Source: Nostoc sp. FACHB-280
GTDB taxonomy: Bacteria > Cyanobacteriota > Cyanobacteriia > Cyanobacteriales > Nostocaceae
Assembly: GCF_014697615.1 (NCBI RefSeq)
Contig: NZ_JACJSD010000001.1
Location: forward strand, 1-64,000
Reading direction: 5' to 3'
Length of the DNA: 64,000 nucleotides
Shown: positions 1,966 through 47,745 of the stretch, piece by piece
Layout: every line of letters starts with the position of its first letter
Position numbering within the stretch: the first letter of the stretch is position 1
Made by a program: the position numbers and the translations under genes
Notes under the pieces: generated by a model
The model's database searches: none
Seen by the model: only the letters and a program-made list of their open reading frames with translations
Told to the model about the DNA's origin: nothing

Positions 1966-3440
<1,475 letters not shown>

Positions 3441-3528
3441 ATGTAGATTGTACCATTTTGCTTACGGTTGAGGACAAGGGAGTTAACAATTTATGAGGTG
3501 TGGAGGAGTGCGATCGCACCTCGCCTTG

Positions 3529-24347: not shown

Positions 24348-24389
24348 AATTCAAGTTCCCAACCTCATCAATCAACCTTTTATCTCCAA

Positions 24390-24578
24390 GTTTCGTGTTC
24401 TGAACTCGAAGGTTCATGTTCGGAACTCCAAGTTTCATGTTCCAAACGAGGACGTTCATGTTCTGAACTCGAAATTTCAGGTTCCGAACTCGAAGGTTCC
24501 TGTTCTAAACGAGAATGTTCTAGTTCTGAGCTTGAATGCTGGTGTTTTGCAGTCGGAGTTCCGCGTTTTGATGTCAAA
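24390..24578. repeat. Tandem array of nine degenerate 21-base units
   Basis: Nine consecutive 21-base units follow the pattern GTTCATGTTCTGAACTCGAA plus one base, with substitutions but no indels. On the minus strand the units stay open and would encode a seven-residue repeat of the SSEHEPS type (65 codons from 24577). No good ribosome site was seen for that frame. Absence of indels means the 21-base register is kept, which is compatible with either coding or structural selection. Confidence 0.85.
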
Positions 24579-38405: not shown

Positions 38406-40675
<2,270 letters not shown>

Positions 40676-41746: not shown

Positions 41747-42355
41747 ATGTCCCGATACAGAGGGCCACGCCTCAGAATTGTACGTCGCTTAGGCGAATTA
41801 CCAGGATTAACTCGTAAAAGCGCAAGACGCGCCTATCCGCCCGGTCAACATGGTCAGAACCGCAAAAAGCGTTCTGAATATGCTGTCCGTCTCGAAGAAA
41901 AGCAAAAACTCCGTTGTAACTACGGTCTAACCGAAAAGCAACTGCTACGCTATGTCCGTAAAGCCAGACGTGTTACTGGTTCTACCGGACAGGTGTTATT
42001 ACAATTGCTAGAAATGCGTTTAGATAATACCGTTTTCCGCTTGGGTATGGCTCCCACAATTCCAGCAGCGCGTCAGCTGGTAAATCACGGTCATGTCACA
42101 ATCAATGGTCGTGTAGTTAATATTCCCAGCTATCAGTGCCGTCCTGGTGAGGTAATTGCGGTTCGTGATAAAGCACAATCACGGAAGTTGGTAGAAACTA
42201 ACTTGCAATATCCTGGTTTGGCTAACCTTCCCAGCCATTTGGAATTTGATAAAAACAAGCTGACTGGTAAAGTTAACGGTGTCATCGAACGCGAGTGGGT
42301 GGCTTTACAAGTTAACGAACTGCTGGTTGTGGAATACTATTCACGACAAGCGTAA
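41747..42355 (+). CDS. rpsD: 30S ribosomal protein S4
   Basis: The 202-residue S4 begins [22 protein letters not shown] and carries the S4 RNA-binding domain ([25 protein letters not shown]). It nucleates assembly of the 30S body. It is a single gene here, away from the main ribosomal operon, as is usual in cyanobacteria. AAGGA precedes the ATG. Confidence 0.98.
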
Positions 42356-42433: not shown

Positions 42434-43420
42434 TTATCCGCCTATTTGCGACATAGTGCGGCTGTATGTGCCTGTAGTACCAGAGTCACGGCCTTTAAAG
42501 TTAATTTCTGGCTTGATAGCTAATAAGTGTCTCACTTGTTCGAGTAACTGGTGGATGCTGACACCAGAACGTAGAGCAGTTTTTAAATCTAATTGACCAG
42601 TTTCGTTTAATAAGCAGGGACGTAACCAACCATCGGCGCTGAGTCGCATCCGGTTACAACGATCGCAAAAACATTCTGACATCTGGCTAATAAATCCCAG
42701 TGTACCTTTCGCTCCTGGAATTTGAAAAACATCCGCAGGCCCATTACCACGAACTTGTGATTCTGTCAATCCCCATTGTTTGCGAATGCGTTGGCGTAAA
42801 TCCGCAGAAGACACCCAACCGCGATCGCCAAATAATTGCCAATTACCAATCGGCATAAATTCAATAAATCGGACGTGCCACTGTTTGTCAATGCTGAGGG
42901 CGGCTAAATCAAGAATTTCATGGTCATTAACACCGGGGATCACCACTACATTCAGCTTCAGAGGGTTAAATCCCGCTTTGTAGGCGGCTTGAATACCATC
43001 CCAGACTTGTTGCCAGCGAGAACGTCCATGATTGCCGATAATTTGATCAAAGATATCAGGATCAAGGGAATCTAAACTAATATTTATTCGGCGTAGGCCA
43101 GCTTCATAAAGATTTTTGGCGATGGGTGCAAGTAAAAACCCATTGGTTGTCATGGATAAGTCTTTAGTTTCCCTGAATGATGCGATCGCTTTAACTAAAT
43201 CTACTACACCAGGACGCAGTAGAGGTTCGCCCCCAGTTAAACGAAATTGCGTAAAACCGACAGGGATAAACACCTCTTGAATCAAAGTCAGTAGTTCCGC
43301 GTCAGAGAGTAGTTGTTGCTTGAGGGCATATTCTAGTTCTGCACCCTCCGGCATACAATATTGACAGCGAAAATTACAGCGATCAATTAAACTAATGCGG
43401 AGATAGTCTACCTGGTTCAT
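42434..43420 (-). CDS. moaA: GTP 3',8-cyclase MoaA (molybdenum cofactor synthesis)
   Basis: The 328-residue radical-SAM enzyme converts GTP to 3',8-cyclo-GTP, the first step of molybdopterin synthesis. The N-terminal cluster motif is CNFRCQYC (Cys15, Cys19, Cys22). The C-terminal second cluster region is [10 protein letters not shown] plus the later PCL. MoaA usually ends in a conserved GG that activates the enzyme, and here the end is MSQIGG, so the tail is intact. No other moa gene is in the window. Molybdenum cofactor is needed for nitrate reductase. Confidence 0.96.
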
Positions 43421-43605
43421 TTTAAGGAATTTATTTCTATTGTATTTTCCGCATTGCCCATCTGACTTTCATAGCTATCAAGCAGAAGAGTGCAAGTTGA
43501 ATAAAGGGCAAAGACTTGCGCCCTCAGATTTTAGTACATTTAAACGAATATAGCAGAAGGCAGGAGGAAAAGTCTTACTATCCCTTGTATTCAAGCTTTC
43601 AAACT

Positions 43606-43643
43606 CTACCCTAGCTGGCTAAACTGGCTGGGGGATTTTTTTT
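43606..43643 (+). ncRNA. NsiR1-like sRNA copy 1 (3' half only)
   Basis: Only the terminator half is recognisable (CCCTAGCTGGCTAAACTGGC, GGGGGA, T8). The upstream promoter segment is not conserved, so it may not be transcribed on its own. Confidence 0.5.
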
Positions 43644-43706
43644 GGTAGATGATGCTTGTTGTGAAAAATTATTCCGGGAGATGCAACTTGAGAACAGAAC
43701 AATTAA

Positions 43707-43770
43707 TTGGTAGATGCACCCTGATAACTTCTCCCCTCGCTGGCTGACACTGGCTGGGGGATTTTTTTTT
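43707..43770 (+). ncRNA. NsiR1-like sRNA copy 2
   Basis: The DIF-like box TCCGGG is at 43673-43678, 34 bases before TTGGTAGATGCACCCTGATAA. The stem TCTCCCC...GGGGGA ends in T9 at 43770. The predicted length is about 64 nt. Confidence 0.75.
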
Positions 43771-43833
43771 GGTAGATGATGCTTGTTGTGAAAAATTATT
43801 CCGGGAGATGCAGCTTGAAAACAGAACAATTAA

Positions 43834-43897
43834 TTGGTAGATGCACCCTGATAACTTCTCCCCTCGCTGGCTGACACTGGCTGGGGGATTTTTTTTT
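43834..43897 (+). ncRNA. NsiR1-like sRNA copy 3
   Basis: The DIF-like box TCCGGG is at 43800-43805. The unit is nearly identical to copy 2 and offset by exactly 127 bases, ending in T9. Confidence 0.75.
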
Positions 43898-43960
43898 GGT
43901 AGATGATGCTTGTTGTGAAAAATTATTCCGGGAGATGCAACTTGAGAATAGAACAATTAA

Positions 43961-44023
43961 TTGGTAGATGCACCCTGATAACTTTCTCCCTAGCTGGCTG
44001 ACACTGGCTAGGAGGATTTTTTT
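43961..44023 (+). ncRNA. NsiR1-like sRNA copy 4
   Basis: The DIF-like box TCCGGG is at 43927-43932. The stem differs on both sides: CTCCCTAGC against GCTAGGAGG, which are compensating changes that keep pairing. It ends in T7. Confidence 0.75.
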
Positions 44024-44107
44024 AATACCAACATCTCAGCAGAAGTAAAGTAATTATATATATTTTTCCTGCGGAAGATGTTAATTAAATCTCGAACCAG
44101 ATAATTA

Positions 44108-44167
44108 TTATAAATACACCCTGATAAATAAATCTCCTAGTTATCTGACATTACTGGGAGATTCTTT
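44108..44167 (+). ncRNA. NsiR1-like sRNA copy 5 (diverged)
   Basis: The box is TGCGGA at 44070-44075. The core ACACCCTGATAA is kept. The stem is CTCCTAGT...ACTGGGAG, again compensated, with an interrupted T-run. Confidence 0.6.
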
Positions 44168-44242
44168 AATATTTGGTAAATAGCAACCATGATTATTGCA
44201 TTTATTCGGAAGATGTTGATAAATTCTCGAATAAATAAATTA

Positions 44243-44304
44243 TCAATTGACGCGCCCTAATAACTAACTCCCCTATGCACTGGCCATAACTGGTAGATTT
44301 TTTT
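44243..44304 (+). ncRNA. NsiR1-like sRNA copy 6 (diverged)
   Basis: The box is TTCGGA at 44205-44210. The core is CGCGCCCTAATAACTAACTCCCC, and the 3' arm is weakened to CTGGTAGA before T7. A weak terminator is predicted. Confidence 0.5.
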
Positions 44305-44377
44305 CTGCTGTTTTAGCAGCATACTGATTTTTGGAATTTTTATCCGGAACATACTTCTAAATCCTGGAAACAGATTA

Positions 44378-44434
44378 TTGGTAGTTGTACTAAGATAACT
44401 AACTTTCCTGCTTGGTAGATACAACTATATTTTT
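44378..44434 (+). ncRNA. NsiR1-like sRNA copy 7 (diverged)
   Basis: An exact TCCGGA lies at 44343-44348, 35 bases before TTGGTAGTTGTACTAAGATAA. The stem region is shortened and ends in a T5 run. Confidence 0.5.
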
Positions 44435-44504
44435 ACTTTTGAAGCACCCAAAAACCTTTATGGTAATTGTTCCGGAAGACTTTGCTAGACCTTGGAACAA
44501 TTAA

Positions 44505-44563
44505 TTGGTAGATGTACCCTGATATCTAACTCCCTGGATTAACTAACACTTACTTGACGATTG
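44505..44563 (+). ncRNA. NsiR1-like sRNA copy 8 (terminator lost)
   Basis: An exact TCCGGA lies at 44471-44476, 34 bases before TTGGTAGATGTACCCTGATA. The 5' half is well kept, but no GGGGGA arm or T-run follows. The transcript end is therefore undefined and read-through is possible. Confidence 0.5.
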
Positions 44564-45195
44564 TTGAGACAGTTATTGTCTTTTGTTGGTAGTTGCTTAG
44601 GCGTATATTCTAGCGTAAGTTTCAGACAATATACTAGTGCAAATGGTGTTTTTTGACTATCAGTGTCAGCATTTATTGACTTAACTTCAATCTGAATCTT
44701 CGCAGTTATCATGCCACCGATAGAGTTTATCAAACACTTTTAGTGTTTATTAAGATGAAACTCACTTATTTACCTTCTACTATTCACAAGCAGTAGATGG
44801 ATTGTGGAAATATTTTTGCGATCGCTCAGTTGCTTTGCAGAAGCTACCCTGGATGAGAATCGTAAGTTTGTACATCCTATCATAGTTTATAGCCAGATTT
44901 CTACTGATTTGTCAAAACCAGATTACAGATTGCTAAAAATTAATTTTTTTGACTTCAATTACACATCTATAACCAAGCCATAGCTTAGGTTTTGGCTAAA
45001 TTCTGTTGCCTAGTCAACAGCTTTTCCACACTATGACTATTTCCTGAAAATTATTTTTTTTCGGATAAAATTCTAAATTTTGTACTTAAATTTTCATTAA
45101 TTGCGCTATCCTAGTGGCTCATCCTTTAGTAAGATGCTTACTTTGAATAAGTATGATACGATATATTGCCTATTTTCAGGGAGGCGCAAAATTAT

Positions 45196-45519
45196 ATGAG
45201 TTTAGCTGTAATTAAATTTTCATCTGAAGACTGCGGCATTTGCCATAAAATGGCTTTTTATGACCAAAAAGTAGCCGAAGAATTGGGTTTGCAGTTTATT
45301 GATGTGAAAATGCAAGATACAGCCACTTATCGCAAATATCGGAAAATTTTGCTCACCCAGTATCCCGATAAATCAGAAATGGGCTGGCCTACTTATATTA
45401 TTTGTGATGCGCCAGAGGGAGAATTTCAGATTATTGGTGAAGTTAAAGGTGGACACCCCAAAGGGGAGTTTAGAAGTCGTCTACAAGCAGTTTTAAATCC
45501 TACTGCTAATGAGAATTAA
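45196..45519 (+). CDS. Thioredoxin-like protein
   Basis: The 107-residue protein has a single thioredoxin fold with an active-site motif CGIC (SSEDCGICHKMAF), like atypical or glutaredoxin-type thioredoxins. The later cis-proline is seen in GWPTYII. It should reduce disulfides in the cytosol. The start is ATG 45196 after GGAGGCG; the longer frame begins in the leader. Its 3' end overlaps the convergent gene by 14 bases. Confidence 0.8.
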   Translation: MSLAVIKFSSEDCGICHKMAFYDQKVAEELGLQFIDVKMQDTATYRKYRKILLTQYPDKSEMGWPTYIICDAPEGEFQIIGEVKGGHPKGEFRSRLQAVLNPTANEN

Positions 45520-45900: not shown

Positions 45901-47745
45901 TTATGCCACTTGTCTTTCGTTGTTAACTGCCAAACGAGCTAGTCCGTAGCAGAGTAGGGCATTAACCATGAGGAAGACTCTGGCTAAGTCGCCATCACCC
46001 AAACCCCAAACGGCTGGGTCGTAAATGGCACTGACTGTCAAGCAAGCTGCCACACCCAAGGTACAACCAACGGCAAACCATTTCCAAGTCGGATGCCCTA
46101 ACAGCAATACAATCAGCAAAAGGGGAATTAACACACTGGCAAATAAGGGATTAAAAGCATTTGTACCTTGTAGGGTGTTACCCAACTCAGGTAGAGAACT
46201 GCCTAACAGGCGGAAAGGCCACTGGGGTAAATCAAATATATAAATGCCTTTGAGGAAGAATAACCCAGAACTGCCAAAAGTTAAGCCACTAAATAAAGCC
46301 CAACTCCAGGTAAAGGGGAAATAAACCCGTAAAAACCAAGCCAGTAAATAGGAACCGACTACCATTAAAATCTTCGGCAAAAGTGCTACAACACCGCCAT
46401 CTATCCAAAAGCCAGGGTTAATATAACCGTTATCGCGCAACCACCGGAAGAAATCTGGGAAACTGATTTGTCCTTGGGCTGCTAGTTTAACTGCGGCTTC
46501 GGCGTTAAGTTGTCCAGCACCGTAATAGTTCAACCCATCATCTTGAATTACTCTGGCTGACTGTTTGAGAACTTTTAAAATGTCATCGGGATTTTCGATA
46601 CCCTTGGCTTTGATTAAAGCCGCTACACCTGCAACGTGAGGCGCAGCCATACTTGTACCTTGGAGTCCCAAAAATTCACTTTCGCCATTTTCGTTGATGG
46701 TTTCTTGCAAAATCTTGCCAGTATCACTACCACCAGGGGCAGAAATATCAACGCCAGCACCATAGTTAGAGTAGTCTGCTTTTTCACCCTCTGGGCCGAA
46801 GGCGGAAACACCAATTACATAGGGGTAACGGGCTGGATAGCTGGCACCATTGGCACTTTCATTACCAGCCGCAGCAATGATGACTACACCTTTTTTATGA
46901 GCATAATCAATAGCATCTTTCATTAACTGGCTTTCACCGCCACCACCCAAGCTCATGTTAATCACATCTGCACCTTTATCGGCCGCAAATTTAATAGCTT
47001 CGGCAATATCGGCGACTGTACCACCACCGTACTCACTTAAAACTTTGAGTGGCATGAGACTGGCCTCGTAAGCAACACCCGCGACACCATATTGATTATT
47101 GGTAGCTTGGGCGACTGTACCTGCAACGTGTGTACCATGTCCGTTATCGTCGGTGGCTTGTTCTCGGTCATTGACAAAATCGTAGCCTTTGACAAATTTG
47201 GTCTCTTTTAAGTCGCGTAGCTGGGTAACACCAGTATCAATCACAGCAACGGTGATGCCACTACCTTTGGTTTCAGTCCACGCGCCTTCAATGCCGATTT
47301 TGTGCAGGTTCCACTGCTTGCTGTAATATGGGTCGTTGGGGCCGATTAAGGAAGGTTTGGCCTCGTTATTTTGGGGTGGGGTGAGTTCTCCAAGAACGGT
47401 GGTTTTAGGTTCTGGGGGAATTCTATAGATGTAATTTGGTTCAATAAATTCTGTGGCTTTGGCAAACTGAGATTTTTTCAGTTGTTGCAGCCTTTGGCGA
47501 TCGCCTTTGATAATATACACATTGTCTTGTGCAGAAAATTTATTATCTAATTGGGGTGTGACGTTGTATTGTTGAGCGATCGCTTGCAAGTCTCGGTCTA
47601 TTTCATCTTTAGCAATATCTTCCCGAAAATCAAGCACAATCGTTTCAAAATCACCTTTTGCTGCTAGTCCCTGAAAATTTAAAAATCCAAAAACAGCAGC
47701 ACCCAGCCCAATAATAAACAGGCACAATAATAATAGCCTTCTCAT
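45901..47745 (-). CDS. Subtilisin-like serine protease with C-terminal membrane domain
   Basis: The 614-residue protein has an N-terminal membrane/signal helix at 3-22, a propeptide at about 30-110 and an S8 peptidase domain at about 140-420. The catalytic triad is in place: Asp170 (VIDTGV), His203 (GHGTHVAGT) and Ser365 (GTSMAAPH), plus the oxyanion Asn (AAAGNES). The last 150 residues form about five hydrophobic helices, anchoring the protease in a membrane. This architecture is known in cyanobacteria; the substrate is unknown. Confidence 0.92.
   Translation of the reverse strand: MRRLLLLCLFIIGLGAAVFGFLNFQGLAAKGDFETIVLDFREDIAKDEIDRDLQAIAQQYNVTPQLDNKFSAQDNVYIIKGDRQRLQQLKKSQFAKATEFIEPNYIYRIPPEPKTTVLGELTPPQNNEAKPSLIGPNDPYYSKQWNLHKIGIEGAWTETKGSGITVAVIDTGVTQLRDLKETKFVKGYDFVNDREQATDDNGHGTHVAGTVAQATNNQYGVAGVAYEASLMPLKVLSEYGGGTVADIAEAIKFAADKGADVINMSLGGGGESQLMKDAIDYAHKKGVVIIAAAGNESANGASYPARYPYVIGVSAFGPEGEKADYSNYGAGVDISAPGGSDTGKILQETINENGESEFLGLQGTSMAAPHVAGVAALIKAKGIENPDDILKVLKQSARVIQDDGLNYYGAGQLNAEAAVKLAAQGQISFPDFFRWLRDNGYINPGFWIDGGVVALLPKILMVVGSYLLAWFLRVYFPFTWSWALFSGLTFGSSGLFFLKGIYIFDLPQWPFRLLGSSLPELGNTLQGTNAFNPLFASVLIPLLLIVLLLGHPTWKWFAVGCTLGVAACLTVSAIYDPAVWGLGDGDLARVFLMVNALLCYGLARLAVNNERQVA

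Follow-up and report, generated by a model that had tools for sequence, protein, structure and literature searches.

An NsiR1 small RNA array in Nostoc sp. FACHB-280 that has been separated from hetF

What does an array of small RNA genes act on when the gene that it normally accompanies lies elsewhere in the genome? The window analysed here, the whole stretch of 64,000 nt from contig NZ_JACJSD010000001.1 (40% GC), raises this question through a + strand tandem array at 43606-44563, placed between moaA (- strand) and a gene for a small CGIC-motif protein (+ strand). The repeated gene, NsiR1, is to our knowledge one of a handful of small RNAs with a demonstrated role in bacterial cell differentiation. 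In PCC 7120, as described in the available sections of PMC9045159 and PMC8406250, hetF has upstream of it an array of twelve nsiR1 copies whose transcription is directed away from the gene, and NsiR1.1 among them is antisense to the 5' UTR of hetF. The sections of PMC9045159 also report that NsiR1.4 binds the leader of the hetP-like gene alr3234, which makes action in trans possible. Because NsiR1 in that strain is antisense to its neighbour hetF and also acts in trans on a hetP-like gene, the cis and trans modes are hard to separate there. A clade in which evolution has already parted the two makes the question directly testable, as a natural test of the small RNA alone. The array and its neighbours are as follows.

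39776..40675, + strand: hetR, master regulator of heterocyst differentiation, 299 aa (Pfam Peptidase_S48 and HetR_C)
41747..42355, + strand: rpsD, ribosomal protein S4 (Pfam Ribosomal_S4 and S4)
42434..43420, - strand: moaA (Pfam Radical_SAM and Mob_synth_C), the divergent neighbour of the array, by synteny in the place that hetF occupies in coupled genomes
43606..43643, + strand: unit 1, truncated NsiR1, the 3' (terminator) half alone with no promoter box; junction with the moaA side
43673..43678, + strand: DIF1-like box of unit 2, TCCGGG, 35 nt ahead of the sRNA start
43708..43768, + strand: unit 2, intact NsiR1 sRNA, RF02399 66.3 bits
43800..43805, + strand: DIF1-like box of unit 3, TCCGGG, 35 nt ahead of the sRNA start
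43835..43895, + strand: unit 3, intact NsiR1 sRNA, RF02399 66.3 bits
43927..43932, + strand: DIF1-like box of unit 4, TCCGGG, 35 nt ahead of the sRNA start
43962..44023, + strand: unit 4, intact NsiR1 sRNA, RF02399 60.5 bits
44070..44168, + strand: unit 5, degenerate; box TGCGGA at 44070, RNA part 44108-44168, RF02399 32 bits (below cut-off)
44205..44308, + strand: unit 6, degenerate; box TTCGGA at 44205, RNA part from 44247, local profile match alone (19.3 bits)
44343..44440, + strand: unit 7, degenerate; box TCCGGA at 44343, RNA part from 44378, recognised by box and spacing alone
44471..44563, + strand: unit 8, degenerate; box TCCGGA at 44471, RNA part from 44506, no T-run, RF02399 24.6 bits (below cut-off)
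45166..45519, + strand: small CGIC-motif protein, by synteny an ancestral distal-side neighbour of the array
45901..47745, - strand: subtilase (Pfam Peptidase_S8 and DUF5942), by synteny an ancestral distal-side neighbour

The array is almost certainly NsiR1. A sequence-only reading of this DNA had proposed that identity, and the Rfam search that it suggested bears it out: units 2, 3, and 4 score 60-66 bits with RF02399 (NsiR1), whose gathering score is 39. At a permissive threshold the model also matches, below its cut-off, the RNA part of unit 5, a stretch at 44506-44567 in unit 8, and one at 43585-43642 corresponding to the truncated unit 1 (20.3 bits); units 6 and 7 give no RF02399 match even at that threshold, and unit 7 gives none to the local profile. 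Unit 1 matches the local profile at model positions 25-62 (23.4 bits) and retains a hairpin of -16.1 kcal/mol. Tandem Repeats Finder reports a period of 127 at 43605-44023 (3.3 copies, 94% matches, score 743), and the boxes lie 127-143 nt apart, the period given by the earlier reading. Its count of eight units stands if truncated unit 1 is included, with just three of the eight intact (starting at 43708, 43835, and 43962) and four degenerate (44108, 44247, 44378, and 44506).

Each of units 2-8 carries a DIF1-class box, seven in all and all within one mismatch of TCCGGA, as had been claimed for the complete units. The predicted sRNA starts follow at 35, 35, 35, 38, 42, 35, and 35 nt, so that the proposed spacing of 34-38 holds for six units and fails for unit 6. 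T-runs had been claimed for copies 1-7. The tandem units have terminators of their own, of which only those of units 1-4 show hairpin and T-run clearly; in unit 6 a T-run accompanies a poor hairpin, the T-runs of units 5 and 7 are weak (the hairpin of unit 5 is -14.1 kcal/mol), and unit 8 lacks a T-run. The region 43400-44700 holds seven terminator-like sites, several of them overlapping, against 0.9 in shuffles. In the predicted fold of an intact unit the first 22-24 nt are unpaired save for a 3-bp helix, and the seed UAGAUGCACCC lies within this stretch; the terminator hairpin follows, and the whole RNA folds at -16.8 to -17.7 kcal/mol. Judged by its sequence, each intact unit is a separate gene with a DIF1-class promoter, an RNA of about 60 nt, and a terminator hairpin. 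The proposed fit of unit size, box, and terminator to NsiR1 holds as well, since box position, RNA length, and terminator agree with the available sections of PMC9045159 and PMC6133370, the latter being the source of the DIF1 motif (TCCGGA, one mismatch allowed, near -35). By analogy with PCC 7120, expression of the array would be heterocyst-specific and HetR-dependent. Two other identities were rejected: a protein-coding repeat, as the antisense ORFs of 72 and 95 aa that overlap repeat units read as by-products, and other RNA families, whose matches at E <= 1 (TCL6_2, RAGATH-25, Xist_exon1) fall far under their cut-offs.

The array shares with that of PCC 7120 a 60-nt RNA of the RF02399 family, a DIF1-class box about 35 nt ahead of it, a promoter and terminator for each unit, a mixture of several near-identical and several divergent copies, and transcription directed away from the divergent neighbour gene. 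Unlike the twelve copies that stand together beside hetF in PCC 7120, it is split and has moaA and hetR as neighbours, hetF having another location and a new leader. The hetR gene, 2.9 kb from the array, holds the single HetR_C match in the whole genome; the small CGIC-motif protein has no Pfam match over 45196-45519. Elsewhere in the window, a TPP riboswitch (3347-3443, - strand, 63.1 bits) lies just upstream of a 462-aa ORF at 1966-3354, and a tandem repeat at 24384-24536 has 21-nt and 63-nt periods (score up to 185).

We are highly confident that the array is split and stands without hetF. We take hetF to be the CHAT-domain gene that adjoins NsiR1 across Nostocales, identified by domain and position rather than by alignment to the PCC 7120 record. 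The sole copy in this genome at E <= 1e-80 is on another contig (C69:18100-20580), and no NsiR1 occurs within 9.4 kb upstream of it. The array in the window is therefore NsiR1 but lies outside a PCC 7120-type module, in which an array upstream of hetF would place NsiR1.1 antisense to the hetF leader. Of 159 confirmed hetF loci in named genomes the best 80 were compared, and in 77 of these NsiR1 lies upstream in the opposite orientation, at a distance of 66-690 nt from the called ORF start and most often near 180 nt. The three exceptions are Nostoc spongiaeforme FACHB-130, Nostoc sp. TH1S01, and Nostoc sp. CHAB 5844. In a HetF tree (86 rows, quick method, no bootstrap), these three, the present genome, and five other genomes (G001, G002, G004, G006, and G009) fall on one side of a branch with an SH-aLRT of 99, and the coupled FACHB-110 and FACHB-152 stand next to this uncoupled clade. 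The closest NsiR1 in G001 is 5.9 kb from hetF; for G002 the upstream sequence examined spans only 348 nt. The new hetF leader is found in nine of the 11 genomes of the genus examined and is absent in the two coupled ones, G003 and G007. No second hetF still adjoining NsiR1 was found: 13 of 14 genomes have one hetF at E <= 1e-80, and that of G006, in two pieces (C1:2196563-2199047) and with an internal TAA, is either a pseudogene or the product of a sequence error. The portions of the NsiR1 literature covered here give no account of an uncoupling from hetF; the main papers (Ionescu 2010, Brenes-Alvarez 2020) fall outside that scope and may mention one.

How the array and hetF came apart can be read from the coupled sister Nostoc sp. 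FACHB-152 (G003). Its array runs from NsiR1.1 (signature GCACCTTGATCTT) through copies of a hetF-proximal type and copies of a distal type (promoter TTCCGGGAGATGC) to three degenerate copies, the counterparts of which in the window are units 5, 6, and 8. Distal units, degenerate copies, and the subtilase and CGIC neighbours are common to both arrays; unlike the window array, that of FACHB-152 is undivided, with NsiR1.1 179 nt from hetF. The window array consists of the distal-type and degenerate copies, and the proximal half with NsiR1.1 is on another contig. In the uncoupled clade NsiR1.1 and the proximal-type copies occupy a separate locus, which in this genome is C30:94234-95995 and is interrupted by a 316-aa ORF. 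The gene adjoining it (C30:96380-100105; L010:8381-12106) encodes a NACHT-HEAT repeat protein of 1241 aa.

The breakpoints can be followed on both sides. An ancestral hetF-proximal segment of 271 nt is full-length, among 11 genomes of the genus, in G003 and G007 only; for the remaining nine the best match breaks off shortly beyond the NsiR1.1 promoter, at query position 114-138. Relocated hetF is alignable with other hetF genes from about codon 3 onward (in the leader alignment, 24 coupled loci were named, of which 16 fit the start pattern and eight were dropped). It lies near a gene for a protein beginning MSVNDP, which both sisters have without hetF. Upstream of relocated hetF in five of the nine uncoupled genomes are a tRNA-Ser(GGA), a ferredoxin-like gene, and a gene for a 186-aa protein; the sisters carry these three as well, again without hetF. 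As for the source of the new leader, its best match in G003 has E 0.003 over about 32 nt and in G007 E 0.23. That the old and new leaders are diverged homologues was rejected, their alignment being no better than shuffles (z -0.5 to 1.7 in 12 comparisons). The distal array is present in all nine uncoupled genomes examined: it adjoins moaA in five (that of the window, G001, G004, G009, and G010), stands apart from it in G005 and G006, and lies at a contig end in G002 and G008. Wherever it is linked to moaA it opens with a truncated unit (five of five genomes), and in the sisters neither the hetR-rpsD-moaA block nor the array-2 flank has NsiR1 at E <= 0.1. An assembly artefact is unlikely: in G006 and G009, each a single contig, a long distance separates hetF from the arrays; these two, together with G004 in eight contigs, indicate that the rearrangements are real. 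By these comparisons, in the ancestor of the clade the array was cut inside a unit and parted from hetF at the NsiR1.1 promoter, and hetF now lies at another place under a new leader; the distal half of the array, joined to the moaA-rpsD-hetR block, is the array of the window.

Parted from hetF, the RNAs of the window cannot be its cis antisense, and we consider that they probably act mainly in trans. The strongest argument comes from NsiR1.1, which has hardly changed since it lost its antisense partner, a conservation that is itself evidence for a role in trans. Across the nine uncoupled genomes, mean pairwise identity (ungapped) is 0.992 over nt 1-29 of NsiR1.1, against 0.785 for its promoter and 0.308 for positions -130 to -71. 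Nor is the number of NsiR1 matches per genome reduced, at 11-17 in six uncoupled genomes and 10-15 in four coupled ones. The 5' seed would pair with mRNA leaders and lower their translation; likely targets would be the hetP-like gene known from PCC 7120, perhaps still hetF, and others.

Whether hetF remains among them turns on its new leader. GCATCTA, the complement of the NsiR1 seed, occurs there at -60 in nine of nine genomes, and in 0.6-1.7% of shuffling trials with the four of the nine leaders that were tested. Of the 77 coupled leaders, 68 have the same 7-mer in the interval from NsiR1.1 to the start (about 1% in shuffles), although coupled leaders are conserved in general. As a predicted NsiR1 site in the new leader it is suggestive only, and we propose with some reserve that hetF is still a target in trans. 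Several observations count against this: any 7-mer of the NsiR1 5' end is found in 10-15% of shuffled leaders, the duplex energies of the new leader are weak (z +0.5 to -2.95), and nine of the 77 coupled leaders, among them relatives of PCC 7120, are without GCATCTA. A reporter result in PCC 7120 counts against our reading too: according to the available sections of PMC8406250, removing or changing the nsiR1.1 -10 box has little effect on hetF-gfp. The same result makes a strong cis role harder to maintain. Our tentative reading is that a physical break of the antisense module in one Nostoc clade left a dispersed sRNA family acting purely in trans, in which NsiR1.1 remained under strong selection although its partner was gone, and that relocated hetF carries the 7-nt seed site in a leader with no detectable similarity to the old one. 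This would mean that NsiR1 can reach hetF by way of the seed, with no overlap needed, and that the cis arrangement found throughout Nostocales can be dispensed with.

The closest rival holds that hetF has been freed from NsiR1 control entirely in this clade, that NsiR1 is maintained solely on account of other targets, the hetP-like gene for example, and that GCATCTA is a chance match. Loss of the 60-nt complementarity, the weak duplex scores, and the lack of significant alignment between new and old leaders would all fit; the constant position of GCATCTA in all nine new leaders and its rarity by shuffling speak against it, and we regard it as unlikely. A decaying remnant, with only the other NsiR1 loci mattering since the separation from hetF, could explain truncated unit 1, the degeneracy of four of eight units, and the TCCGGG that replaces TCCGGA in three of seven boxes, the last two of which also count against our reading. 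However, the three intact units are near-identical with their seed unchanged, the distal array persists in every uncoupled genome examined, and coupled G003 also has TCCGGG and three of the degenerate copies, features that therefore predate the split; all of this makes decay improbable. That the array took up a local role on moaA, which stands in hetF's divergent place and adjoins the array in five of nine uncoupled genomes, or on hetR, in view in four of those five, is very improbable, as the array is transcribed away from both, its unit closest to moaA has no promoter, and in G005 and G006 it does not adjoin moaA.

The trans-acting family proposed here, described in this way, resembles the multi-copy sibling sRNAs of other bacteria discussed in the available part of PMC9045159, in which similar copies have shared and separate targets; the likeness drawn here is one of description, and a change from cis to trans by rearrangement is specific to the present case. 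The parts of the system are ordinary and their arrangement is unusual: NsiR1 itself is known, and what is new is its surroundings, an array cut off from hetF.

NsiR1-like genes also occur outside the arrays. One single-copy gene (C42:61534-61584; L011:6536-6585) scores 49-52 bits, has a TTCCGGA box about 36 nt upstream, and is present in ten of ten genomes, coupled and uncoupled. It is an old family member, and its two flanking ORFs (293 and 258 aa), which we take to be lgt-like and cobM-like, respectively, are constant in all six genomes examined. A second isolated gene (C28:67497-67553; L012:6499-6553), at 36 bits below the Rfam cut-off, has the seed TAGATGCACCC and a TTCCGGA box, and its neighbouring ORFs are constant in four of four genomes. 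Three further NsiR1 copies (C25:99509-99825; L009:6510-6826) are divergent to a sigma-70 region 4 gene and lie about 100-145 nt from its possible starts, a geometry that resembles that of hetF; these copies and the sigma-70 region 4 gene are possibly a new antisense pair.
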